DNA of 43,371 nucleotides from Bacillus sp. FJAT-42315 (lineage in GTDB: Bacteria > Bacillota > Bacilli > Bacillales > Domibacillaceae). The notes beneath the pieces are model-generated. The model saw only the letters and a program-made list of their open reading frames with translations. It was not told where the DNA came from and did no database searches. The DNA lies in contig NZ_KZ454941.1 of assembly GCF_002797375.1 (NCBI RefSeq), forward strand, positions 355,135 through 398,505, in the 5' to 3' direction. A program made the position numbers and the translations under genes. This document shows positions 15,219 through 26,984 of this stretch, piece after piece; the first letter of the stretch is position 1, and every line of letters starts with the position of its first letter.

Positions 15219-15239
15219 ACAAAAAGAGAGGTGAATGTT

Positions 15240-17162
15240 GTGAAAAACATCAAATACCATCTTCTATTCTTCGTTGCGTTACTCTGCTTTTCTATTACCC
15301 CATCAATTTCCAAAGCAAACACGATTGAAGGGAAAAGAGCGATCGTGTTTTTTCACGATGAAGTGAATCGTGCGTTATTAGAAGAAAACACGGAAGAGAT
15401 TAATTTTATTTTTGATGAATTACCTGCCGCAGCAGTGAATGTGACAGAAGACCAGAAAGAATTGCTTGCGAGCCATCCAGACATTCAAATGATTCAATAT
15501 GACCAACCGATAGAAAAAAGCGGTCAGGTCATTCCTTATGGCTATAAAATGGTCGGAGCTGATAAGCGAGTTCCATCTACCCTAAGCGGCAAGGGAGTCA
15601 AAATCGCTATCATTGATTCAGGTGTCGATACGAAGCATCCTGATTTGCAAGTTGCAGGGGGAGCTTGCTTCATGACGATCGTTGACGTGCGAGGCTGTAA
15701 AAATTCTTATAATGATGATGCTGGGCATGGCACTCATGTAGCTGGCGTTATCGGAGCAAAAAATAACGGCATTGGCGTAGTTGGCATCGCACCACAAGCC
15801 CAGCTCTATTCCATTAAAGTGTTAGATAAGAATGGAATAGGTACAATTTCAACTGTTATGGCAGGTATTGAGTGGGCGATCAAGCACGACATCAATGTGC
15901 TCAATATTAGTATTACATCGTCTGACTATGATGAAGCATTAGAACGAATGGTGAAACAAGCCTATGATAGCGGTGTAATCATTGTTGCAGCGGCTGGAAA
16001 TGAAGGTCCACCATGGGCAGGAGACCAATCCTCCGTTCAGTATCCAGCTAAATTCAATGAAGTGATCGCCGTCTCATCAATCGATAATAAGAAACAAATT
16101 GGAGACCTATCTTCCATCGGTAGCGAAGTAGAATTGGCGGCGCCAGGTGAAAATATTTACAGCACCGTCCCGACTTCACTATATGTGAGCGGCTATGACA
16201 TGATGTCAGGGACTTCGATGGCCGCCCCTTATGTGACGGGCCTTATTGCATTGTATAAAGAGAAATATCCCGAAATGACAAATCGTCAAATTCGAATGTT
16301 ACTACAGAAAAACGCCATGGATCTTGGTGCTAAAGGTCGTGACATCTATTATGGTTACGGCTTAGCTCAAATAGACAAACAATCAGTGAATGGAGATATC
16401 GCAGTTCCATACACAACGGATGGTCAAGGAAAGATCACGTTTGACACTAGCCAACTGATCAATAAATACAATAGCTTTAACATGTATCGCGCCGGCAAGC
16501 TCATTGCTAGCAATGTAACAGCTACTGAAGTGGTCGATTATGCATCGAAAGGAACGATTGAGTATCATTTTTATCCTTCAGCTGATCAATCGGGAGACTT
16601 AAACTTTGTTAATTTAGAAGTGAATAATCCTGGCCCAGCCTTCAAGGACTTATCGCTTTCTCATTGGTACAATCGCCACATGACGTATTTACACCACCAA
16701 AAAATTTTGCAAGGATATCCAGATGGAACGATCCAACCAAGCAAGCCGCTCACTCGCGGCGATGCAGCCATATTAGTCGGTCGAGCGATTGGTGTCGACA
16801 CATCTAGCCGAACGCCTCGATTTACAGACGTTCAATCGACAGTGAGCGCCCCATACGTAGAAGCGCTAGCTGAGAAAAAAATTGTCTCTGGCTATTCAGA
16901 TGGCACATTCCGTCCGAACGAACAAGTGACACGCGCACAAATGGCGATCCTAATCGCTAAAGCATACGAGGTGGCTCCGCAAACAGGCGGCACCTTCAAA
17001 GACGTCAGTTCAAACGTCACAGGCAACCAATTCATTAACGCCTTAGCTGCTCAAAAAATTGTAGGCGGTTATCTAGACGGCACTTTCCGACCTTATGGAA
17101 ATATTGACCGAGCGAGTTTCTCCGTCTTCCTAGCAAGAGCAGAAAACAAAGACTTAAGATAA
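15240..17162 (+). CDS. SLH-anchored subtilisin-like serine protease
   Basis: A 640-residue S8 protease: signal peptide (to about SKA-27), I9-like propeptide (about 30-95), catalytic domain (about 105-370), a short beta-rich linker domain, and three C-terminal SLH domains (about 465-638). The triad is Asp126 in IAIIDSGVD, His163 in GHGTHVAG and Ser326 in SGTSMAAP; the oxyanion Asn is near 254 in AAAGNEG. Two Cys residues in an insert (ACF...GCKN) may form a disulphide. GTG 15240 has AGAGAGGTG about seven bases upstream. Possible roles are processing neighbouring surface proteins or scavenging peptides. Confidence 0.92.
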   Translation: MKNIKYHLLFFVALLCFSITPSISKANTIEGKRAIVFFHDEVNRALLEENTEEINFIFDELPAAAVNVTEDQKELLASHPDIQMIQYDQPIEKSGQVIPYGYKMVGADKRVPSTLSGKGVKIAIIDSGVDTKHPDLQVAGGACFMTIVDVRGCKNSYNDDAGHGTHVAGVIGAKNNGIGVVGIAPQAQLYSIKVLDKNGIGTISTVMAGIEWAIKHDINVLNISITSSDYDEALERMVKQAYDSGVIIVAAAGNEGPPWAGDQSSVQYPAKFNEVIAVSSIDNKKQIGDLSSIGSEVELAAPGENIYSTVPTSLYVSGYDMMSGTSMAAPYVTGLIALYKEKYPEMTNRQIRMLLQKNAMDLGAKGRDIYYGYGLAQIDKQSVNGDIAVPYTTDGQGKITFDTSQLINKYNSFNMYRAGKLIASNVTATEVVDYASKGTIEYHFYPSADQSGDLNFVNLEVNNPGPAFKDLSLSHWYNRHMTYLHHQKILQGYPDGTIQPSKPLTRGDAAILVGRAIGVDTSSRTPRFTDVQSTVSAPYVEALAEKKIVSGYSDGTFRPNEQVTRAQMAILIAKAYEVAPQTGGTFKDVSSNVTGNQFINALAAQKIVGGYLDGTFRPYGNIDRASFSVFLARAENKDLR

Positions 17163-17172
17163 CAAACTGAGT

Positions 17173-17204
17173 GAAGCTGACTACCATGTGTGGTCAGCTT
17201 CTTT
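17173..17204 (+). terminator. Terminator after the protease gene
   Basis: GAAGCTGAC pairs with GTCAGCTTC, followed by TTTC. The 285 bases from here to the next gene are AT-rich and show no further gene or convincing promoter. Confidence 0.65.
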
Positions 17205-17489
17205 CGTGTGGATTAGTCGAACACCTACTATATTTAGTATCTACCATTAAATAACTGAAATATTTCAGTGTTACGCGTTATTTGTAATAAAAAATACTAA
17301 TAACAAAAGAACCTAGTTAATTATGGATAATAAATAAAGATATATTGTTGAAAAAGCTTGATTTTATAGGGTTTTTTGTTGTTTACGTGACGAAATAGTA
17401 ATGTAATGCAACCGTAAACGAAAGATGGGCATATTTTTGATAAAATGAAATTAATAACATACGAAGAAAATATTTTAGGAGGTTAGGAA

Positions 17490-18482
17490 GTGAATAGGTA
17501 CAGGAAGATTATGGCTCCTGCAATGGCTTTTTTGCTGATGTTGACGCTGTTCTTACCAATGTCTCATACGCAAGCAGCATCGATCGGAGAGTCACTTATT
17601 AATTACGGAAAAAAGTTTATGGGTGTACGTTATGTGTTTGGTGGTACGACGCCGAGTGGTTTTGATTGCTCAGGATTTACTCAATATGTGTATAAGAATC
17701 AAGGTATCTCGATCCCGAGAACGACTGGACAGCAATACAATATTGGGACTTCGGTTTCTAAAAGTCAATTACAAATAGGTGACCTAGTATTCTTTGCTAA
17801 TACATATAAGCCTGGAATTTCACATGTTGGGATTTATGCGGGCGACAACATGGTTTTAAATGCAACGACTAGCAAGGGAATTGCTCTTGTCTCTTTAAGT
17901 AACTCTTACTGGGGTCCGAAATATGCAGGAGCAAAACGTATATTGGATGGAAAATTTAAAGATGTGTCATCTAGCCATTTAGCATTTGACGCGATTGAAG
18001 ATTTAACAGACAAAAAAATCATCAACGGATATAGCGACTATACATTTAAACCTAATGAACCTGTGACGCGTGGACAAGCGGCTGCATTCCTTAATCGTGA
18101 ATTGAATTTGGAAGCGATGAACCTTTCACAGTTTACAGATGTAGATCCATCTAACCCGTTTGCCAAAGATATTGCAGCGATTCGTGAGGCAGGAATCATC
18201 AACGGTTTCGCCGATCAAACGTATAGACCGTACTCTTATATTACACGAACAGAAATGGCTGCTATTTTGAAAAAAGCTTATGAATTAAACTTAGGTAATG
18301 CGACAGCTGCTGGGAATAGCTACAGCGATGTGAGATCTGATAGCTGGGCATACGAAGCAATTACTGCGATGAAACTAATTGATCAAACAGGCGTATTCAA
18401 TACAGCTAATTATAACGGTCCAAGCCGTGCAACGCGCGCGACTTTCTCAGCCGCACTTTACAATTCAATGAATGCTCGATAA
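17490..18482 (+). CDS. SLH-anchored NlpC/P60 endopeptidase
   Basis: A 330-residue secreted protein: signal peptide ending TQAA near residue 30, NlpC/P60 cysteine peptidase (about 31-150) and three SLH domains (about 153-328). The catalytic Cys is in PSGFDCSGFTQYVY and the His in GISHVGIYAGD. The family cuts gamma-D-Glu-diaminopimelate or related bonds in wall peptides. The domain order is reversed relative to the amidase (enzyme first, anchor last). The third SLH copy is degenerate (AYEAITAMKLIDQTGVFN). A TAGGAGG site precedes the GTG start. Confidence 0.9.
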   Translation: MNRYRKIMAPAMAFLLMLTLFLPMSHTQAASIGESLINYGKKFMGVRYVFGGTTPSGFDCSGFTQYVYKNQGISIPRTTGQQYNIGTSVSKSQLQIGDLVFFANTYKPGISHVGIYAGDNMVLNATTSKGIALVSLSNSYWGPKYAGAKRILDGKFKDVSSSHLAFDAIEDLTDKKIINGYSDYTFKPNEPVTRGQAAAFLNRELNLEAMNLSQFTDVDPSNPFAKDIAAIREAGIINGFADQTYRPYSYITRTEMAAILKKAYELNLGNATAAGNSYSDVRSDSWAYEAITAMKLIDQTGVFNTANYNGPSRATRATFSAALYNSMNAR

Positions 18483-18485
18483 TAG

Positions 18486-18512
18486 CCTTGGGATTTTTCC
18501 AAGGTTTTTTTT
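18486..18512 (+). terminator. Terminator after the NlpC/P60 gene
   Basis: CCTTGG pairs with CCAAGG around GATTTTT, followed by eight Ts. Confidence 0.8.
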
Positions 18513-18534
18513 AGAAAAAAAATATAAGCACCTC

Positions 18535-18563
18535 TTAATTTATTTATATAGATCAGATAGAAT
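18535..18563 (+). promoter_or_regulatory. Promoter of glucosaminidase copy 1
   Basis: TTAATT (18535-18540), exactly 17 bases, TAGAAT (18558-18563). The same boxes at the same spacing precede the duplicated gene downstream, which supports the call. Confidence 0.55.
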
Positions 18564-18607
18564 AAGAGAGTATGGAAAAATGGGTATCGAAAGGAGTTCC
18601 ACCTTTT

Positions 18608-20593
18608 ATGCAAAAAAAGTTTTTTGCTGTTGTTATGTCGCTAGTTTTGTTATTCCCGTTTTTATCGCCTTTAAACGCCAAAGCGGATGATATTTCAGGA
18701 ATAACGTTAGAGAAAGAGCTTCGAGCTATGGTAGAAGCAGGGGTTATCCAAGGTTATGGTGATGGAATTTATAAACCAAACGAAAAAGTGACACGCGGAG
18801 AATTCGCTACCTTTATCGCTCGAGCATTGAAGCTTCCAGAAGGGGCGCCCACTTTTCCTGATGTGCCGTCTAGCTCTTCGCTTGCTTACGGGGTGAATGC
18901 AGCGGCCGCAGCGAAGATTGTTAACGGATATTCAGATGGAAAGTTTAATCCGCAACTATCGATTACAAGAAAAGATATGGCTTTAATGATCAGCAACGCC
19001 TTAGATTATTTAAAAGTAGATGTTACATATAATGAATCTAGCTTTTCAGATATCACTGGGTTAAGCACAGCTCATAAAAATGCGATTAATAAAAGTGTGA
19101 CTCTGAAAATCATTTCAGGATATAACGAACACACTTTTGGCCCAAATGATCAAGCAACACGTGCACATGCAGCCGCATTTATTTACCGCATGCTACAAGC
19201 TGTAGAGAATTTAGATGGGGGAGGAACACCACCACCCGAGCCAAAACCAGAACCAGTCAAACCTTATCAAGTAGCAAATATCGATTCGGCTGGAACGTTA
19301 ACTTACGCTCTGACTTCCTATGATTCTTTTGAAGAAGCAAAGCGTGCGATGACAAGTCAAGGGAATGAACTGGTTACGTTCAATCAAAAAATCATCTACA
19401 TGAAAGAGAACAGTGGGTTAGTGTATGCCAAGCCAAAATCTGCGGCAACGGTTAACTTATACACCGATTCGTTGTTCAAAACAGCGAAAACCTATGTATC
19501 TAGTTCTGCTACATACGGCACCACCGAATTAAAATATGTGACGTCTACCGATCAGTACGTTCAAGTGAACCTCGGTGGGGAAGACTATTATATGAAGCCG
19601 AGCGATGCTTTGCTTGTTCCATTTGAAGGGGCAAAAGGTCGTAGCTACTACAAAAATGTCAATGGCGAGCTTTATCATTACCTCTATAATTATGATACAA
19701 CTAAATATGCTTCCTATAATGCAGGAGTCGCTCCTTCATTTATGAGCAGTAACGAGAAATACTACAGCTTTGATAATGGAAACTTTTACAATGAACAAGG
19801 AAATAAAGTAGGAACAGCCTATCAATATTTCCAATTCCTATCTGCAAGAACAACATCGAACTACACAGCAGCTGAACTAGATAACTATATTTTGAAGGTT
19901 CTAGCTGAAAAAGAAGCAACAGGTTCAGCGAGTTACAAAGAGGCCACGAAGAAAAGTAAGCTGATCGGCCTCGGCGCGACATTGAAAAAAGTAGAGGCAG
20001 AAAAACGAATCAATGCGCTTATGATTTTAGCGATGGCGAACCACGAAAGTAACTATGGCATGAGTCAACATGCGCAAACGAATAATAACTTATTCGGAAT
20101 TGCTGTCTACGATAGCACACCAGACCAAGGCGCAACTTTCGCATCACCAGCTGAAAGTGTCTATGCATTAGCTGATTTATTCTTGAATGCTAACACTGAC
20201 TGGAGAGGCGGCTACTTAGTGCCGAACACATGGCGCTCATACGGTAGCGCACCAGGAACAAAAGCGAATGGTATCAATGTGAAGTATGCTTCCGACGCAT
20301 GGTGGGGCTCTAAAGTAGGCGGTCATATGTATCGTATTGACAAAGCGCTTGGAAGCAAAGACTTTAACAAATACCAACTAGGTCAAACAAATACTGAAGG
20401 ACTTAATGTTCGCGTGACACCAAACGGCGACATTCAGTATCAATACAAACTAAAAGGGATGCCAGTCGCTTACCTTGGTAGCACAACAGCAAGTGCAGGA
20501 ACGACTTGGCAGAAAATCATCTCGGACGACTTGCAATACCAAGAAGGCTACGTTAGTTTCCGTTACTTAACGACATTGCCAATTGCAAAATAA
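18608..20593 (+). CDS. SLH-anchored beta-N-acetylglucosaminidase, copy 1
   Basis: A 661-residue autolysin: signal peptide (MQKKFFAVVMSLVLLFPFL...AKA), three SLH domains (about 28-200), a Pro-rich linker, a middle region with two KxYQ/TTELKYV-type modules, a GH73-like glucosaminidase domain with its probable catalytic Glu near residue 480 (MANHESNYG), and a C-terminal SH3-like domain (TEGLNVRVTPNG). It should cleave GlcNAc-MurNAc linkages as LytD-type enzymes do. ATG 18608 is chosen because AAAGGAG lies 11 bases upstream, as in the paralogue; ATG 18572 precedes that site. Confidence 0.9.
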   Translation: MQKKFFAVVMSLVLLFPFLSPLNAKADDISGITLEKELRAMVEAGVIQGYGDGIYKPNEKVTRGEFATFIARALKLPEGAPTFPDVPSSSSLAYGVNAAAAAKIVNGYSDGKFNPQLSITRKDMALMISNALDYLKVDVTYNESSFSDITGLSTAHKNAINKSVTLKIISGYNEHTFGPNDQATRAHAAAFIYRMLQAVENLDGGGTPPPEPKPEPVKPYQVANIDSAGTLTYALTSYDSFEEAKRAMTSQGNELVTFNQKIIYMKENSGLVYAKPKSAATVNLYTDSLFKTAKTYVSSSATYGTTELKYVTSTDQYVQVNLGGEDYYMKPSDALLVPFEGAKGRSYYKNVNGELYHYLYNYDTTKYASYNAGVAPSFMSSNEKYYSFDNGNFYNEQGNKVGTAYQYFQFLSARTTSNYTAAELDNYILKVLAEKEATGSASYKEATKKSKLIGLGATLKKVEAEKRINALMILAMANHESNYGMSQHAQTNNNLFGIAVYDSTPDQGATFASPAESVYALADLFLNANTDWRGGYLVPNTWRSYGSAPGTKANGINVKYASDAWWGSKVGGHMYRIDKALGSKDFNKYQLGQTNTEGLNVRVTPNGDIQYQYKLKGMPVAYLGSTTASAGTTWQKIISDDLQYQEGYVSFRYLTTLPIAK

Positions 20594-20596
20594 GTC

Positions 20597-20632
20597 AAAA
20601 AACCTTTAAAGCGGCCGCTTTAAAGGTTTTTT
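20597..20632 (+). terminator. Terminator, 36-bp perfect palindrome
   Basis: Six As, CCTTTAAAGCGG and its exact complement, ending in six Ts. It could act on both strands. The copy after the second glucosaminidase is nearly the same. Confidence 0.9.
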
Positions 20633-20645
20633 GGGCGTAGTGAAG

Positions 20646-20708
20646 GCTAAATTGGGTGTGAATCGTGTCGGATTGGGCGAGAGTTATGTCGAATTAGGCA
20701 TGGGTTTT
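20646..20708. repeat. 21-nt tandem repeat array 1 (3 units)
   Basis: Units start at 20646, 20667 and 20688, each near GTCGAATTGGGC plus nine variable bases. It lies 13 bases after the terminator palindrome. The same unit occurs at 22798 and 25647. Confidence 0.7.
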
Positions 20709-20739
20709 TTATCATCTTCCCTAAAATTCTATTTAACCC

Positions 20740-20768
20740 TTAATTTACTATTTGTAATACGATAGAAT
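20740..20768 (+). promoter_or_regulatory. Promoter of glucosaminidase copy 2
   Basis: TTAATT (20740-20745), 17 bases, TAGAAT (20763-20768), identical boxes and spacing to copy 1. Confidence 0.55.
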
Positions 20769-20806
20769 AAAAGAGTATGAAAAAATAGAAAGGAGTATCA
20801 TTTTTT

Positions 20807-22744
20807 ATGTTAAGGAAATTTTTCACCATGATGATGTCGCTAGTGTTGCTAGTTCCATTCTTATCTCCTTTAACGGCGAAGGCAGATGATATTACAGGAA
20901 TCACGTTGGAAAAAGAAATTCGGACGATGGTTAAAGCGGGGATTATGCACGGCTATGGCAATGGCGTGTATAAGCCGGAGAAAAAAGTGACACGGGGGGA
21001 ATTTGTGACTTTTATCGCTAGAGCACTGAAACTTCCAGCAGGAAAACCAGCCTTTTCTGATGTGCCAGCCAGCTCGTCACTAGCTTATGGAGTAAACGCG
21101 GCGGCTGCAGCGAACATTGTGAACGGAGATTCGACTGGAAAATTCAATCCGGGAGCATTCGTTACAAGAAAAGATGCCGCTGTCATGATTAGCAACTCTT
21201 TAGATTATTTAAAAGTAGAGGTTACATACACAGAATCTCCTTTTTCCGACATTAATCATTTAAGCTCGGATGAGAAAAAAGCGATTCATAAAAATGTAGC
21301 AATGAATATCATTTCAGGCTATGACAAACATACGTTTCGTCCAGATGAACGAACAACTCGTGCTCACGCAGCGGCGTTTATTTATCGTTTGTTAGTGGCA
21401 GCAGGAGAGGACATCAAGCCAGAACCAGCAAAGCCTTACCAAGTAGCCAATATTGATAAGAGCGGAACATTGACTTACGCGTCCGCCTCTTATAACTCGT
21501 TTGAAGAAGCAAAACAAGCGATGACAAGCCAAAAGCAAGAAGTCGTCACGCTCAATAAAAAGATCATTTACATGAAAGCACACAGCGGATTAGTGTACGC
21601 CAAGTCAAAATCAGCAGCGACGGTCAATTTATATACGGACCCAAAATTTAAAACGATTAAAGCGTCTGTACCTAGCTCTGCTAAATACGGAACGACCGAG
21701 TTAAAGTACGTGACATCGACAGATCAATTTGTCCAAATATATATCGGTGGGGAAAACTTCTATATGAAACTAAGCGACGCTTTGCTTGTTCCATTTGAAG
21801 GGGCAAAAGGTCGCAGCTACTACAAAAATGTGAATGGTGAGCTGTATCATTATCTTTATGATTACGATAGATATACTTCCTATCATGCAGGCGCCGCTCC
21901 TTCATTTATGAGCAAAAATCAGAAATACTATAGCTTCGATGGTGCAATTTTTTACAACGGAGCAGGAAAAAAAGTAGGTACTGCCTATCAATATTTCCAA
22001 TTCCTATCAGCTAGAACGAAAACAAGCTACACAGCAGCTCAACTAGATAGCTATATTAAGAAAGTTCTAGCCGAAAAAGAAGCAACAGGTTTGGCCAAAT
22101 ACAAAGATGCGACGAAGAAAAGTAAGCTGATCGGCCTCGGCGCGACATTGAAAAAAGTAGAGGCGGCTAAACGTGTCAATGCGCTGATGATTCTGGGAAT
22201 GGCCAACCATGAAAGTGATTATGGCATGAGTAAACACGCACAAACTATCAACAACTTATTTGGCATCGCTGTGTATGATAGCGCACCAGATCAAGGGGCG
22301 AAATTTAAATCGCCAGCAGAAAGCGTGTATGCATTGGCTGATCAATATCTGAATGCCAACATCGACTGGCGGGGTGGCTACTTAATGCCAAATACGTGGC
22401 GCGCTTACGGCAGTGCACCTGGAACAAAAGCGAACGGCATCAACGTGAAATACGCTTCTGATGCATGGTGGGGTGCCAAAGTCGGCGGACATATGTACCG
22501 CATCGACAAAGCACTCGGACGTAAAGACTTCGGCCAATATCAACTAGGTGTGACCAATGCCGCAGAACTTAATGTTCGCGCGACACCAAACGGCACGATT
22601 CAATACCAATACAAATTAAAAGGGATGCCAGTCGCTTACCTTGGTCAATCAAGCACTTGGCAAAAAATCGTCTCAGACGACTTGAGATACAACGAGGGCT
22701 ACGTCAGTTCCCGCTACTTAACGACATTACCAATTGCAAAGTAA
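20807..22744 (+). CDS. SLH-anchored beta-N-acetylglucosaminidase, copy 2
   Basis: A 645-residue paralogue of the preceding gene with the same layout: signal peptide, three SLH domains (about 25-195), shorter linker, middle region, glucosaminidase domain (MANHESDYG, Glu near 468) and SH3-like end (AAELNVRATPNG). Long stretches are identical, including VPFEGAKGRSYYKNVNGELY. Promoter boxes, ribosome site (GAAAGGAGT), start context and terminator are also shared, so the duplication covered the entire transcription unit. The linker and SLH parts have diverged more than the enzyme, for example NGDSTGKF for NGYSDGKF. Confidence 0.9.
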   Translation: MLRKFFTMMMSLVLLVPFLSPLTAKADDITGITLEKEIRTMVKAGIMHGYGNGVYKPEKKVTRGEFVTFIARALKLPAGKPAFSDVPASSSLAYGVNAAAAANIVNGDSTGKFNPGAFVTRKDAAVMISNSLDYLKVEVTYTESPFSDINHLSSDEKKAIHKNVAMNIISGYDKHTFRPDERTTRAHAAAFIYRLLVAAGEDIKPEPAKPYQVANIDKSGTLTYASASYNSFEEAKQAMTSQKQEVVTLNKKIIYMKAHSGLVYAKSKSAATVNLYTDPKFKTIKASVPSSAKYGTTELKYVTSTDQFVQIYIGGENFYMKLSDALLVPFEGAKGRSYYKNVNGELYHYLYDYDRYTSYHAGAAPSFMSKNQKYYSFDGAIFYNGAGKKVGTAYQYFQFLSARTKTSYTAAQLDSYIKKVLAEKEATGLAKYKDATKKSKLIGLGATLKKVEAAKRVNALMILGMANHESDYGMSKHAQTINNLFGIAVYDSAPDQGAKFKSPAESVYALADQYLNANIDWRGGYLMPNTWRAYGSAPGTKANGINVKYASDAWWGAKVGGHMYRIDKALGRKDFGQYQLGVTNAAELNVRATPNGTIQYQYKLKGMPVAYLGQSSTWQKIVSDDLRYNEGYVSSRYLTTLPIAK

Positions 22745-22747
22745 GTC

Positions 22748-22783
22748 AAAAAGCCTTTAAAGCGGTCGCTTTAAAGGCTTTTT
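22748..22783 (+). terminator. Terminator after glucosaminidase copy 2
   Basis: AAAAAGCCTTTAAAGCG pairs with CGCTTTAAAGGCTTTTT around GT. It is a near copy of the palindrome at 20597. Confidence 0.9.
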
Positions 22784-22797
22784 TGGGCGTAATGCGA

Positions 22798-22860
22798 GCT
22801 AAATTGGGCATAAATCATGTCGAATCGGGCGAAAACGATGTCGAATTAGTCATACGACCT
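22798..22860. repeat. 21-nt tandem repeat array 2 (3 units)
   Basis: Units start at 22798, 22819 and 22840 (first half near GCTAAATTGGGC or GTCGAATCGGGC). It lies in the gap between the glucosaminidase terminator and the convergent flippase gene. Confidence 0.7.
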
Positions 22861-22874
22861 AGCACGGCCCACCA

Positions 22875-24389
22875 CTATTTCACTTTCCGCTTCACCATCG
22901 ATAACAGCTGGCGGAAGCCTTCTTTATAAAATACAAACAGGCCAAAGACATACAGCACAACTCCAAGCGGCACGATGATCATCAGCTGCCAAAGCGAATA
23001 CAGCTCAGAAATTGGGGTGAACGCTTTTAACAAATAAAGCGGTCCGACCATTACGGCGGTAACGACTGTCACTCGACCGATTAAGCCAAACAAACGTGTC
23101 GCTTCTTTTTTCTCGAAATCTTTATAAACAAAAATCGTACTTACGACTAAATAATAAACGGAAATGAACGAGCTTGTCAGCGCCAGACCAGGGTAGCCAA
23201 ATGGCTCGACAAACAACCAGTTCAAAAAGAAATTTAGCGCAATCGTCGTGACACTGATGCGGAAAATAATATTTGTTTTTCCTTGAGCATACATCGATTT
23301 CGAGACGATGTACTGCAAGCCTTGCGCGACAACGATCGGCAAATAATACACTAGCGCCAAATACGTGTTATGCGTATCATCCGCACCGAATTTCCCGCGC
23401 TCAAAAATAAAGGAAATCGCTTCTTCTCCAACTAGGAACAAGCCGGCCGCAATCGGAGCGAGCGTCACTAACGAAATTTGTATCCCCATGAAAAACGTAT
23501 TTTGAAACTTTTTTTGATTATTCACTTGTTCAGACAACAGGGTAAAAATAACGACCGCAATCGTCGTCCCATAAATCGTATGCGGAATGCTCGTAATCAA
23601 GCTCGCATTGTTCAAATAAGTGACCGCTCCCGGAATCGTACTCACCGCAAAGGCTTTATTGACAAACATATTAATTTGTCCAACCCCAGCATTTAATAGC
23701 GAAGGCACGAGTAACACAAGAAAGGAGCGTCGAAATTCTTCTTCTACTTTAAGCGTTGGTTGCCACTGATACCCTTTTCTCAGTAGGAAAAATAATTGAA
23801 TCCCGATCCCAACAATCGTTCCGAAAATGAATCCGTACGCTAAGCTGTTAATGCCCCATTGATCAGAGAACAACAGCGCAAATACGGCTCCCATCAACGT
23901 AGCCGACAACTTGGACATTTGTGACGGGACAAAAATTCGTTGCGCCTGTAAATAAGAATCCAAAATCCCATTCAACGCAATCGCACTCATAAATAAGAAG
24001 AAAAATTGCGTAATTTCAATCGTTACTTCCGCCGTTAATCCGGTGCTTTTCGGATAAATGAGCGGGACAAACGATGGACTAAGTAGCCATCCTAATACGG
24101 AAATCACCAAAAAGATGACGACCGTTGCGTTCATGACCCCGTTCGCATTTCGCTCGGTTGCTTCTGGAGCTTCTTTCTTCTTTTTGACATACAGCGGTAA
24201 AAACACATTGTTAAACCCGCCCGAAATAATAGCAATCACTAACGTAATAAATGAAAACGCCAATAAATATCCATCTGTATAACTAGTCGCTCCAAACTCG
24301 CGCGCAATAATACTTTCCCGTAAAAAGCCCGAAAGCTTCACGACAAGCGAAAGCACAACAAGCCAAAGAGCCGTTTTCTTTAACGACAC
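22875..24389 (-). CDS. murJ: MurJ/MviN-family lipid flippase
   Basis: A 504-residue polytopic membrane protein of the MOP superfamily with about 14 hydrophobic segments. The MurJ signature is at the N-terminus: KLSGFLRESIIAREFGATS. An internal VPSLLNAGVGQINMFVNKAF is also typical. It should flip an undecaprenyl-linked precursor, either lipid II or, given the neighbouring wall-polymer genes, a polysaccharide repeat. The start is GTG 24389 with GAGGTG six bases upstream; ATG 24407 precedes that site. It is convergent with the glucosaminidase gene and divergent from the NERD gene. Confidence 0.85.
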   Translation of the reverse strand: MSLKKTALWLVVLSLVVKLSGFLRESIIAREFGATSYTDGYLLAFSFITLVIAIISGGFNNVFLPLYVKKKKEAPEATERNANGVMNATVVIFLVISVLGWLLSPSFVPLIYPKSTGLTAEVTIEITQFFFLFMSAIALNGILDSYLQAQRIFVPSQMSKLSATLMGAVFALLFSDQWGINSLAYGFIFGTIVGIGIQLFFLLRKGYQWQPTLKVEEEFRRSFLVLLVPSLLNAGVGQINMFVNKAFAVSTIPGAVTYLNNASLITSIPHTIYGTTIAVVIFTLLSEQVNNQKKFQNTFFMGIQISLVTLAPIAAGLFLVGEEAISFIFERGKFGADDTHNTYLALVYYLPIVVAQGLQYIVSKSMYAQGKTNIIFRISVTTIALNFFLNWLFVEPFGYPGLALTSSFISVYYLVVSTIFVYKDFEKKEATRLFGLIGRVTVVTAVMVGPLYLLKAFTPISELYSLWQLMIIVPLGVVLYVFGLFVFYKEGFRQLLSMVKRKVK

Positions 24390-24447
24390 GAACTCCACCT
24401 CATTCAAAATATCAATCTAACTAATAATAACATAAAGTGAAACTTCA

Positions 24448-24589
24448 ATCAGTGGGGGTTTTCTTTATCCCCCACTGATTGTTAGTTGAACTAATCGGGC
24501 ATCTACGGGCTGTTGATCCCCCATCTGCCAGTTGGTACTTCTTGCCACGTTGAGGTGGGGATCTTACAGCCCGTTAATGCGGGACAAAT
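24448..24589. other. Highly structured intergenic element, possible mobile-element remnant
   Basis: Two large hairpins between divergent genes. The first has a perfect 12-bp stem, AATCAGTGGGGG with CCCCCACTGATT. The second pairs ACGGGCTGT and ATCCCC with GGGGAT and ACAGCCCGT around a loop of about 30 bases. There is no coding frame. The layout recalls IS200/IS605-type ends or a non-autonomous derivative, but I cannot confirm that; a structured RNA or regulator for the flanking genes is also possible. Confidence 0.4.
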
Positions 24590-24649
24590 GTCGCGAAGGA
24601 ATATTGTCAGACGTTGTAGAAATATTTCCTTATAGAAAGGAGTGAAAAT

Positions 24650-25615
24650 GTGTTAGTAAAAGCAAGAACGATCCCTTTAAAGATCTCGATGTTAGAGGCA
24701 TTGAAGCGTAACCTACCCGAGCACCACATGAAACATTCCGTAATCGAAGACGAATTGGCTAGAAGCCGAGCCGGATACCGCGGCGAGCAATCAATTGACT
24801 ACCACTTATCGTTTCTTCCCGATGACTATCTCATCCTCCACAACATGCGGCTTTCGAGCGGCGATTATTTTTTCCAAATCGACACGCTCATTATTTGTCC
24901 GAACGTCATTGTCATCCTCGAAGTGAAAAACATCGCCGGCAAACTGTTCTTTGACGAAACGTTCCATCAACTGATTCGCACCACCGAGGAAAAAGAAGAA
25001 GCTTTCGCCGACCCGATTTTACAAGTGCGGCGACAACAAAGGCAGCTCGAATCATGGCTTGCTTCGCACAAAATCCCCGCTATGCCCATCGTTCCATTCG
25101 TCGTCATCAGCAATCCAACCACAATGATCAAAAATAATCACACCCACAAAACGGTACTCCAAATCGTCACCCACGCCAGCGCCATTCCATTTAAATTCGA
25201 TCACCTTCATAAGAGTTATCCAAACGAACGGCTCACCCGATCAGAAATGAGCAAACTGTCCCAGTTATTACTCAAACATGACCAACCGTATCGCCCCGAC
25301 GTACTCAGTCAACTGCAAATTTCAGAAGATGAACTATTAACAGGTGCTAAATGTGAAAAGTGCCATCATCAACCGATGAAACGAGCAGTCGGCACATGGC
25401 GTTGCCAGCGTTGTCACCATCAATCAGTAGATGCCCACATTTCAGCGCTCGCAGACTACGCTCTCCTGCATAGCCCCGCCATCACGAACAAACAATTTCG
25501 CCATTACTTTCATCTGCAATCGAATAACGTTGCGAAACAACTGCTCGGCGCGATGAATCTAACACAGAGTGGCAATCGAAGAAGTCGAAGATACTATTTG
25601 CCGTTACCGAAATAA
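24650..25615 (+). CDS. NERD-domain protein with zinc ribbon
   Basis: A 321-residue protein. The N-terminal half (about 40-160) fits the NERD nuclease-related domain: RGEQSIDYHLSFLPDDYLIL, then QIDTLIICPNVIVILEVKNI with the Asp and the E-x-K pair of restriction-endonuclease-like folds. Two CxxC pairs follow (CEKCHH and CQRCHH, about 230-260), a zinc ribbon. Nuclease activity is inferred, not shown, for the family. GTG 24650 has AAAGGAG seven bases upstream, preceded by a small hairpin (GGAATATT with AATATTTCC) that may influence translation. Confidence 0.82.
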   Translation: MLVKARTIPLKISMLEALKRNLPEHHMKHSVIEDELARSRAGYRGEQSIDYHLSFLPDDYLILHNMRLSSGDYFFQIDTLIICPNVIVILEVKNIAGKLFFDETFHQLIRTTEEKEEAFADPILQVRRQQRQLESWLASHKIPAMPIVPFVVISNPTTMIKNNHTHKTVLQIVTHASAIPFKFDHLHKSYPNERLTRSEMSKLSQLLLKHDQPYRPDVLSQLQISEDELLTGAKCEKCHHQPMKRAVGTWRCQRCHHQSVDAHISALADYALLHSPAITNKQFRHYFHLQSNNVAKQLLGAMNLTQSGNRRSRRYYLPLPK

Positions 25616-25646
25616 GCCCAATCCTGTGCGATTGGGCTTGTTTTTT
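25614..25646 (+). terminator. Terminator after the NERD gene
   Basis: A perfect ten-bp stem, AAGCCCAATC with GATTGGGCTT, loop CTGTGC, then GTTTTTT. The left arm overlaps the stop codon. Confidence 0.9.
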
Positions 25647-25751
25647 GTCGTATTGGTTGTGAGGTGCGTCGAATTAGTCGCCCGGGCGCTGGAATTGGGC
25701 GCCCGGACTGTCGAATCGGGCGAGAAATATGTCGAATTAGGCATCGGCACC
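25647..25751. repeat. 21-nt tandem repeat array 3 (5 units)
   Basis: Units start at 25647, 25668, 25689, 25710 and 25731 with no deviation from 21 nt. The array begins on the base after the terminator T-run. Units two and three contain GCCCGGGCG and GCGCCCGG, which can pair. Confidence 0.75.
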
Positions 25752-25777
25752 GGCATCGCACCACATCAGCACCCACG

Positions 25778-25806
25778 AAAAAACCACCCCGCCCAAGGCG
25801 AGGTGG
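25778..25806 (-). terminator. Terminator after the GT4 gene (minus strand)
   Basis: On the minus strand CCACCTCGCC pairs with GGCGGGGTGG around TTG and is followed by six Ts. Confidence 0.8.
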
Positions 25807-25814
25807 CCCACCAC

Positions 25815-26984
25815 TCACTTCACAGCCTGCATATAAATTTCTTCATATTTCTCAGCTGCGGCCATGTGAGAGTATTCGTCTTCAATTTTCTTCCGCGCAC
25901 GATCGGCAAATGCTTGAGCTTTCGCTGGGTCATCCAATAACTCGATCATCGCAGCGGACAATTCTTCCACGTTTTTTTCTTCGGTCAATAGTCCATCGAC
26001 GTTGTGATCGACGATTTCTTTCAGTCCGCCAACCGCACAAGCGATCAGTGGAGAACCAGAGCCCATCGCTTCCAATGCGGAAATCGAAGTGGCTTCTTCT
26101 ACGCCGGCAGAGTGAACGCTCGGCACTAACACAACATCAGCTAATGCGTAAAACTCTTTAATGACGTCATGCGGAATCGCACCTAACAAACGAACACTTT
26201 TCTCCAGCTTATGCTCGGCGATCAATCGTTTCATCTCATCCATCGCTTCTCCCGTACCCGCATAAATCAACTGAGCGTTCGGATACTTCTCTAACACCGC
26301 TGGCATGGATAAAATCGGATAAATCACGCCGTTTTTCTTCGTTAAGCGACGTGGGACGAAGAACACAGGCACATCGACATCGACGCCGTGCTTTTGACGA
26401 AATTCCGCTTTTTTCTCTTTCTCCGGACGGAAGTCATCGACGTTGATAAAGTTGCGAATCGCCGTACCGGTAATGCCCGCTTCACGTTGCACATATTCTT
26501 TAATACGCGTGTCCACCGTAATAATCGCGCGTGTGCTGCGGTACGCCTTCACTTCTTCACCCATCAAAAACTTCTCTTCAGGGCTATCCTTTAAAATGTT
26601 TCCAGCACTCAACGCCTCATATGTTAAGTAGCCATGCACCGTAGATACAACTGGCAGCCCGGCATCAAGAGCGGCAAATGTTGCGTACACTTCCTGCGCA
26701 TTCACGACATCATAGTTTTTATGCTTGACTGCTTCCATTAGCTTTTGTAGCATTTTCTTTCGCGTCTGCAAGCCGAACACGAAGCCTTTCCCTTTAGACA
26801 ATTTATTCATTAAAAAGCCAGGGCCACGCACTTTCATGTTTTGCTGTAATTCAGGAATGTCACTAAATGATAAAATATCCACTTCATGACCGCGCGCTTC
26901 CAATCCAGCTTTCAAAGTCGCCACATGAGTAGACAACCCACCTGTATGTGGATAATGGTACACGGTCGCAAGCAAAATCTTCAT
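25815..26984 (-). CDS. GT4-family glycosyltransferase
   Basis: A 389-residue GT-B enzyme. The N-terminal lobe starts MKILLATVYHYPHTGGLSTHV (acceptor side). The C-terminal lobe carries FFVPRRLTKKNGV and the retaining-GT4 nucleotide-sugar motif region EEATSISALEAMGSGSPLIA with the E-x7-E pair. It probably adds a sugar to the secondary cell-wall polymer, as it lies 16 bases downstream of csaB on the same strand. The substrate cannot be told from sequence. GGGGAGGG lies eight bases before the ATG. Confidence 0.85.
   Translation of the reverse strand: MKILLATVYHYPHTGGLSTHVATLKAGLEARGHEVDILSFSDIPELQQNMKVRGPGFLMNKLSKGKGFVFGLQTRKKMLQKLMEAVKHKNYDVVNAQEVYATFAALDAGLPVVSTVHGYLTYEALSAGNILKDSPEEKFLMGEEVKAYRSTRAIITVDTRIKEYVQREAGITGTAIRNFINVDDFRPEKEKKAEFRQKHGVDVDVPVFFVPRRLTKKNGVIYPILSMPAVLEKYPNAQLIYAGTGEAMDEMKRLIAEHKLEKSVRLLGAIPHDVIKEFYALADVVLVPSVHSAGVEEATSISALEAMGSGSPLIACAVGGLKEIVDHNVDGLLTEEKNVEELSAAMIELLDDPAKAQAFADRARKKIEDEYSHMAAAEKYEEIYMQAVK

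Follow-up and report, generated by a model that had tools for sequence, protein, structure and literature searches.

Phased 21-bp repeat arrays behind transcription terminators in Bacillus sp. FJAT-42315 and other Bacillales: candidate docking rows for a putative DNA-bending protein

Introduction

What might a short sequence be doing that recurs, turn upon turn of the helix, just past the ends of genes? The question is raised by a 43,371-nt stretch of the genome of Bacillus sp. FJAT-42315 (NZ_KZ454941.1, positions 355,135-398,505; the window). Three tandem arrays lie in it, all on the plus strand, starting at positions 20646 (three clear units), 22798 (three) and 25647 (five). A sequence-only reading of the window had described them as exact 21-nt tandem repeats. 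The arrays are real and their period is exactly 21; their units, however, are degenerate and not exact copies of one another. The explanation that we favor, and hold to be plausible rather than probable, is that the arrays are phased rows of docking sites for a putative protein, with an insulating or blocking effect behind terminators. In what follows, G000 is the genome of the window, G001, G002, G003 and G004 are its four genus-mates, and other G-numbers designate sampled genomes.

Results

The unit and its phase

Across 346 units from the genus (those with at least seven of the nine core positions, so that the core is partly selected for), the core reads A (0.74) A (0.93) T (0.97) Y R G (0.95) K C (0.95) R. 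A YR step occupies positions 8-9 in 340 of them, and A is preferred again at positions 16-17 (0.58, 0.54), one helical turn past the first A pair. Core-to-core distances, collected with no period assumed, peak at 21 bp (211 cases), 42 (167), 63 (110) and 84 (61), off-phase distances reaching 21 counts at most. The units lack the palindromic build of REP and BIME elements, with no opposite-strand offset exceeding 12 counts against the 211 on the same strand at 21 bp. The period is 21 bp in the genus and 20-21 bp in some other genera; arrays comprise 3-18 units in the genus, 4-11 in Lentibacillus and 16-37 in Sporosarcina. Fifteen of the 24 arrays of G004 have six units, or 126 bp, but this length is typical of G004 alone, and the idea of a fixed 126-bp footprint was dropped. 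As to the unit first proposed as common to the three window arrays, GTCG ahead of AATT turned out to be common in G000 and its relative G003 only, and it is the core AATYRGKCR that is common to the other carriers. Many G000 units also contain TGTCGAA, the consensus of the Spo0A box; it is not common to relatives such as G004. The Spo0A box was rejected as the shared signal because conservation does not extend to the bases ahead of AAT in G004, Psychrobacillus or Lentibacillus.

In the 22 genus arrays of exactly six units, spacers of one array agree at an identity of 0.307 and those of different arrays at 0.283, where composition alone would give 0.253; spacers at the same unit index of unrelated arrays agree at 0.338, a slight position effect. 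Spacers are thus nearly unrelated between units, and the arrays are therefore not young duplications. The arrays are accordingly either old or built site by site, and the spacing has held while the spacers drifted. A minisatellite, whose units would be more alike within than between arrays, is not what these figures describe, and a young minisatellite is ruled out for the genus; that reading does fit Sporosarcina in part, several other members of the order and, by eye, most pattern matches outside Bacillales. What the genus shows, a conserved site that recurs in phase with the helix while the spacers vary freely, is the pattern of a phased protein-binding array. The arrays are not CRISPR, as had been noted from the start: the 21-bp units are contiguous and their conserved core is 9 bp long and degenerate, unlike the long, near-identical CRISPR repeats that alternate with unique spacers of some 20-50 bp.

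We regard it as highly improbable that the arrays are an RNA-level element, a decayed coding repeat or a plain minisatellite. Some Sporosarcina arrays are homogenized and one orthologous pair differs by a whole unit, as a minisatellite might, but the arrays mostly stand behind terminators and their spacers are unrelated. Two of six arrays fold better than most of their shuffles (z = -2.3 and -2.2); the other four do not (-1.5, -0.6, +0.3 and +1.65) and the folds differ; with z running from -2.30 to +1.65, RNA structure was rejected. No Rfam family reaches its gathering score between positions 18000 and 28000, and a sub-threshold Thr_leader match over the third terminator (E 0.46) was taken as chance. 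Derivation from one coding sequence, which the sequence-only reading had named as the finding that would overturn it, was rejected: no frame is open in all arrays, nor in more than 21 of 41.

Placement relative to genes and terminators

Placement was scored for 57 arrays in loci of four genomes (11, 11, 11 and 24 arrays), genes being simple open reading frame calls of at least 80 amino acids. The upstream gene reads into the array in 50 cases, and the flanking gene pairs are ++ in 22, +- in 28, -- in six and -+ in one. Among gaps of at least 60 bp, counted in loci picked because they hold arrays, arrays occupy 25 of the 32 between convergent genes, 23 of the 64 between codirectional genes and 1 of the 26 between divergent genes. 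In codirectional gaps the arrays are oriented in the sense of transcription 22 times and antisense six times (p 0.004; 10 versus 3 in G004 alone), orthologous loci not being independent. For other genera 48 rows were read, one locus appearing twice; Psychrobacillus resembles the genus (the called upstream gene is in sense for eight of nine arrays) and Lentibacillus mostly does so (six of eight). These distributions bear on the possibility that the arrays are operators of a regulon, through which a conventional transcription factor would control neighbors such as the S-layer genes. The window arrays do flank two SLH/glucosaminidase genes, and five of the 48 rows from other genera (the twice-counted locus included) lie in divergent gaps. 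With arrays alone counted, however, a divergent gap holds 1 of 57 in the genus, and convergent genes, 28 of 57, which leaves operators a quite improbable explanation.

The association with intrinsic terminators, which the sequence-only reading had proposed to map, is borne out in the genus; a lack of enrichment after terminators, which would have overturned that reading, is not what the arrays of the genus show. A terminator of -12 kcal/mol or stronger lies on the same strand within 60 nt upstream of 42 of the 57 arrays, as against 3 of 171 shuffles, and one on the other strand lies downstream of 12 of 57, against 3 of 171 dinucleotide shuffles. At a looser cut-off of -7 the figures are 44 upstream and 20 downstream of 57, versus 18 and 23 of 171 shuffles. 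The commonest distance from hairpin end to array start is 13-17 nt. Grouping the hairpins of 46 arrays by sequence gives 21 clusters, some of them related, and nine clusters have their median distance in this range. In the window, 18, 18 and 6 nt separate the hairpin ends from the first clear units (Table 1), or about 13, 12 and 0 nt when counted from the end of the T-run, in agreement with the 0 to about 14 nt first reported. The register of the arrays continues upstream: the T-runs of terminators 1 and 2 occupy the AAT slot of an extra degenerate unit, and for array 3 the register takes in the 3' arm of terminator 3 (25626). A standard terminator scan of positions 20400-26000 returned eight sites, against 7.2 in shuffles, and zero on the plus strand; terminator 1, having a symmetric stem, is reported by it on the minus strand only. 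The window terminators are thus not shown by that scan alone but by our own hairpin finder together with its shuffle control.

Constraint, and gain or loss

Nine orthologous array pairs of G000 and G003 were aligned. Core positions 6, 7 and 10 differ at 2 of 141 sites, the spacers at 80 of 556. In eight of the pairs, 17 of 18 changes at the degenerate core positions 8, 9, 11 and 13 keep the class Y, R or K, while 58 of 90 spacer changes are transitions. Indel columns inside the nine arrays number 41, 0, 0, 2, 5, 1, 11, 0 and 21; the 21 corresponds to one whole unit, and the 41, 11 and 5 lie near array edges, where the chain of units ran into the terminator or the first unit. Arrays stand behind the same NERD-domain gene in G000, G001, G003 and G004, whose proteins are 76-90% identical to that of the window. 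By eye, the G003 array at this locus is close to that of G000; in G001 and G004 the terminator is a different one, as are most bases of the spacers. The NERD gene was not found in G002, and the stretch fetched there beside the glycosyltransferase ortholog is without an array.

Presence of an array can also differ between species. At 762.9 kb in G004, between flanks 82-87% identical to G000 and G003, about 209 bp including an array are absent from the latter two, which retain 28 bp with, by eye, a terminator-like hairpin at the gene end. G001 and G002 match one flank only. In addition, eleven aligned copies in three genomes (Table 1) form a composite dispersed repeat in which hairpin, T-run and six units were copied together, likeness beginning at the hairpin and ending with unit 6 (by eye). 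Since hairpin and array travelled together, these copies are not independent evidence for the distance between the two. One could envision a dispersed selfish or REP/MITE-like repeat, a hairpin-plus-array cassette that inserts at gene ends and whose period is inherited, with no function for the host. The eleven copies with their common hairpin, T-run and units, and the block missing from G000 and G003, speak for such a repeat. Yet the hairpins of the 46 arrays represent 21 clusters, spacers drift while core, base class and spacing are kept, at orthologous sites too, and the present/absent site (one locus, by eye) shows no clear target duplication or inverted ends. A functionless dispersed repeat explains the composite group and not the constraint, and we consider it unlikely as the general explanation. 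The earlier suggestion that the arrays serve as a recombination substrate draws indirect support at most, from the one whole-unit difference and the dispersed hairpin-plus-array copies.

Predicted shape of the DNA

Curvature was predicted for 41 arrays with two wedge models. The mean bend is 64.5 and 111 degrees in the two models, as opposed to 31.0 and 32.8 in shuffles, and 26 and 41 of the 41 arrays, respectively, exceed 95% of their own shuffles. When the period was varied in silico from 16 to 33 bp, curvature peaked at 21 and again at 31-32, that is, at two and three turns; breaking the phase lowered it from 66.6 to 27 degrees (34 arrays). With the core kept and the spacers randomized it was 44.6 and 72.8 degrees, so that the spacers contribute to it. 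In most carriers examined the arrays are predicted to be curved: Psychrobacillus (63), Sutcliffiella (71, with a wide spread), Sporosarcina (50), G170 (86, two arrays) and family f20 (63). Those of G069 and G037 are barely or weakly curved (40). For terminators of the window that lack an array the mean is 40 degrees, and for the window as a whole 33. Curvature was rejected as a universal property because the Lentibacillus arrays average 21 degrees, versus 30 for random windows.

The GC content of the unit oscillates with a power of 6.6 at 10.5 bp and 2.3 at 21 bp. This rhythm inspires analogies with DNA gyrase. The E. coli gyrase motif spans 130 bp with 10.75-bp GC phasing, and gyrase is enriched downstream of transcribed operons (PMC6379681); GC periodicity of 10-11 bp is reported for the gyrases of three species including a Bacillus (PMC12324340). 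The arrays could accordingly be strong gyrase loading sites, a Bacillales counterpart of BIME-2, in which alternation of AT and GC every 10.5 bp over some 126 bp would favor wrapping on the gyrase C-terminal domains (CTDs), in a place behind terminators where positive supercoils collect. The 10.5-bp power exceeds that at 21 bp in three genera (our own, Psychrobacillus and Lentibacillus), and the 126-bp arrays of G004 come close to the E. coli length. But length varies elsewhere, and the base specificity of the core (G10 and C12 at 95%) goes far beyond a degenerate GC rhythm. The E. coli motif is symmetric and degenerate (PMC6379681), whereas here a base-specific core recurs in one orientation, and a symmetric motif does not predict the one-sided polarity of the genus arrays; nor is the downstream enrichment in E. 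coli reported to be hard-wired in the motif score (PMC6379681). Gyrase thus fits the G004 length, the GC rhythm and the 3'-end location, but neither the base-specific core nor the variable length, and we judge it rather unlikely, though together with the selfish repeat it is a live alternative.

Distribution

Within its own genome the unit is readily recovered. A 12-mer with up to one mismatch occurs 32 times, against seven for a reversed control, and a 54-nt model, partly built from the window arrays, finds them genome-wide at E 1.2e-10 to 2.8e-6. The same model, which contains no G003 array, gives 13 matches at about ten loci in G003 (best E 6e-12). Tandem Repeats Finder picks up the third window array alone (25668-25722, 73% matches). 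A three-unit model made from sequence only (R1; 19 slices of own-genome arrays) yielded 19 matches at E up to 10, with 150 of 655 first-look candidates scored; they group into 11 arrays. A match at 436 kb, coding by eye, was dropped, and each of the other extra matches overlaps one of these 11 or lengthens it. Run on 40 relatives at E up to 0.01, R1 matches three of the four genus-mates, with 24 (G004), 11 and 11 arrays, and gives one weak match in a genome of another family (E 0.009), coding by eye. G002 has no array, its best model match being at E 0.099.

A second model, spanning four units and drawn from several genera (R2; 30 slices), was run on 299 genomes of the order. At E up to 1e-4 it matches 25 of them, in 14 of 116 genera, our own included with four genomes; since 15 candidates were scored per genome, these counts are likely low. 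The loci read comprise degenerate arrays in Lentibacillus, Sutcliffiella, G182 and family f20, but elsewhere, as in G088, G170, G230, G273 and G094, the repeats are long and homogeneous. Of 398 genomes sampled across the phylum (E up to 1e-6, 11 candidates scored per genome), 2 match, both from the genus of the window. A scan of named genomes for three exact cores at 21-bp spacing returned at least 113 stretches. Bacillales carriers among the matches listed are Bacillaceae bacterium SAS-127, Bacillus sp. REN10, RO1 and RO2, Sutcliffiella horikoshii, Lentibacillus sediminis, Psychrobacillus sp. BL-248-WT-3 and Sporosarcina limicola; most of the remaining matches listed are, by eye, homogeneous repeats, often from cyanobacteria, Bacteroidota or Planctomycetes. 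The arrays of S. limicola (L087, L094, L122, L141, L171, L172) run to 16-37 units at 20/21-bp spacing and are very long and partly homogenized, unlike the short, degenerate arrays found elsewhere. L203 (G088), L212 (G273) and L213 (G094) are long arrays with a 20-21-bp period in which the core is altered, for example to AATCGGCCGATAGA or TATCGGTCGTC. A phage origin was considered and rejected: nine viral contigs matched, all with three to eight units that are by eye near-identical, so that their repeats are not of this kind.

The arrays are not spread evenly over the chromosome. All those of G000 lie inside a 1.22-Mb arc around the origin (eight merged loci, p 0.005; dnaA at 80.7-82.0 kb), and in G004, where dnaA starts at base 22, 14 of 21 merged loci fall in one 915-kb arc (p 0.002, the arc length having been picked after seeing the data). 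The two genomes share loci and are not independent in this respect. In both, clustering is within about 1 Mb of the origin, and the strand of dnaA suggests that the arrays are mostly on the same chromosome arm.

Discussion

The sequence-only reading had raised binding of a protein in phase as one possibility, and among the readings it is the one that fits best. Exact phase with free spacers, a base-specific core with its YR steps kept, and a single orientation within each array are why we picture a protein on one face of the helix every two turns. Each array would be a row of sites for a sequence-specific, probably DNA-bending, protein, one site covering some 9-13 bp (AAT-YR-G-K-C-R, often with AA one helical turn later). 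As the site recurs every 21 bp, the bound copies would all lie on one face and could bind cooperatively. In the genus, the row begins just past the intrinsic terminator, roughly where the leading edge of an RNA polymerase stalled on the U-tract would be. From this place, some one unit beyond the hairpin, it could act on polymerases that fail to stop or on the torsion ahead of them. The job of the bound row might then be to insulate the 3' end, holding or stopping read-through polymerase, absorbing the torsion pushed ahead, or both, so that the next gene is kept isolated.

Several observations weigh against this explanation. Its protein is putative and its function is one that we infer. Over the whole core, G000 and G003 differ at 34 of 422 sites, little below the 103 of 1046 in the flanks, which are partly coding. 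Fifteen of the 57 arrays have no strong upstream terminator. Relative to genes and terminators, the arrays of Sutcliffiella and Sporosarcina point in mixed or reversed directions; blocking of read-through in a strictly polar manner is therefore not general, and a polar roadblock was abandoned as a universal rule. For the composite copies, functionless copying would suffice. The absence of arrays from G002, one of five species in the genus, means that they are dispensable there. Predicted curvature is not above background in Lentibacillus, G182 (36) or G088 (28, one array), and a 32-bp period would bend DNA as well as 21, slightly better in one model (67.9). Finally, as many as 21 of 41 arrays have a given reading frame open where shuffles lead one to expect 5.3, which is in favor of a coding repeat.

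That the sequence-only reading knew no described element of this form agrees with our search of the literature, in which titles and abstract openings yielded no description of such phased arrays. Some known systems nevertheless offer parallels. The gyrase-bound BIME-2/REP elements of enterobacteria are likewise dispersed, intergenic, located mostly at 3' ends and credited with a role in torsion or gyrase action; REPs, however, are palindromes, and the present arrays consist of direct repeats that are not palindromic, have another core and keep a fixed 21-bp phase. Plasmid iterons and partition-site arrays are direct repeats at about two helical turns, with protein bound on one face. They serve one replication or partition locus, whereas here there are many arrays per chromosome, mostly behind terminators. 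Roadblock terminators such as the Sal-box/TTF-I and Reb1 arrays also place protein sites past the end of transcription, possibly halting polymerase; these are eukaryotic, and our arrays are bacterial, with a putative protein. The E. coli gyrase motif (PMC6379681) is alike in spanning about 130 bp with 10-11-bp GC phasing.

Spacing that is constrained while the spacers themselves are free strongly points to a repeated protein-DNA complex, and this pattern is seen here at 3' ends in several genera. If the docking reading is true, Bacillales would have a second layer of transcription termination or of torsion control, and a 126-bp array would be a direct bait for finding the protein. A bolder version, speculative and more doubtful, is that Bacillales possess an undescribed class of chromosomal insulators: terminator-plus-array cassettes on which a putative dedicated protein would form a phased, DNA-bending filament ahead of halted polymerase, the cassettes being gained and lost as blocks, their 21-bp phase kept by selection while spacers drift, and clustered on one arm near the origin.

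Features of the window

Table 1. Terminators, arrays and composite repeat copies
Feature	Position or loci	Strand	Basis
Intrinsic terminator 1, of SLH/glucosaminidase gene 18572-20593	20602..20632 (hairpin 20602-20627 + T-run)	+	own hairpin finder, -13.4 kcal/mol
Array 1, clear 21-bp units at 20646, 20667, 20688; extra degenerate unit 20625 over T-run	20646..20708	+	
Intrinsic terminator 2, of paralogous SLH/glucosaminidase gene 20807-22744	22752..22785 (hairpin 22752-22779 + T-run)	+	own hairpin finder, -16.7 kcal/mol
Array 2, clear units at 22798, 22819, 22840; extra degenerate unit 22777 over T-run	22798..22860	+	
Intrinsic terminator 3, of NERD-domain gene 24650-25615	25613..25646 (hairpin 25613-25640 + T-run)	+	own hairpin finder, -15.7 kcal/mol
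Array 3, five units at 25647, 25668, 25689, 25710, 25731	25647..25751	+	
Facing terminator of convergent glycosyltransferase gene 25815-26984, downstream of array 3	25784..25801	-	
Composite repeat copies	L219, L221, L223, L225, L230, L231, L232 (G004); L264, L265 (G001); L035, L038 (G000)		

The genes ahead of arrays 1 and 2 belong to an island of genes for SLH-domain proteins (15231-22744) that encodes a subtilase, an NlpC/P60 protein and two paralogous glucosaminidase proteins; the terminators of the two glucosaminidase genes are near-identical. On the other strand lie genes for a MurJ-type flippase and a glycosyltransferase.

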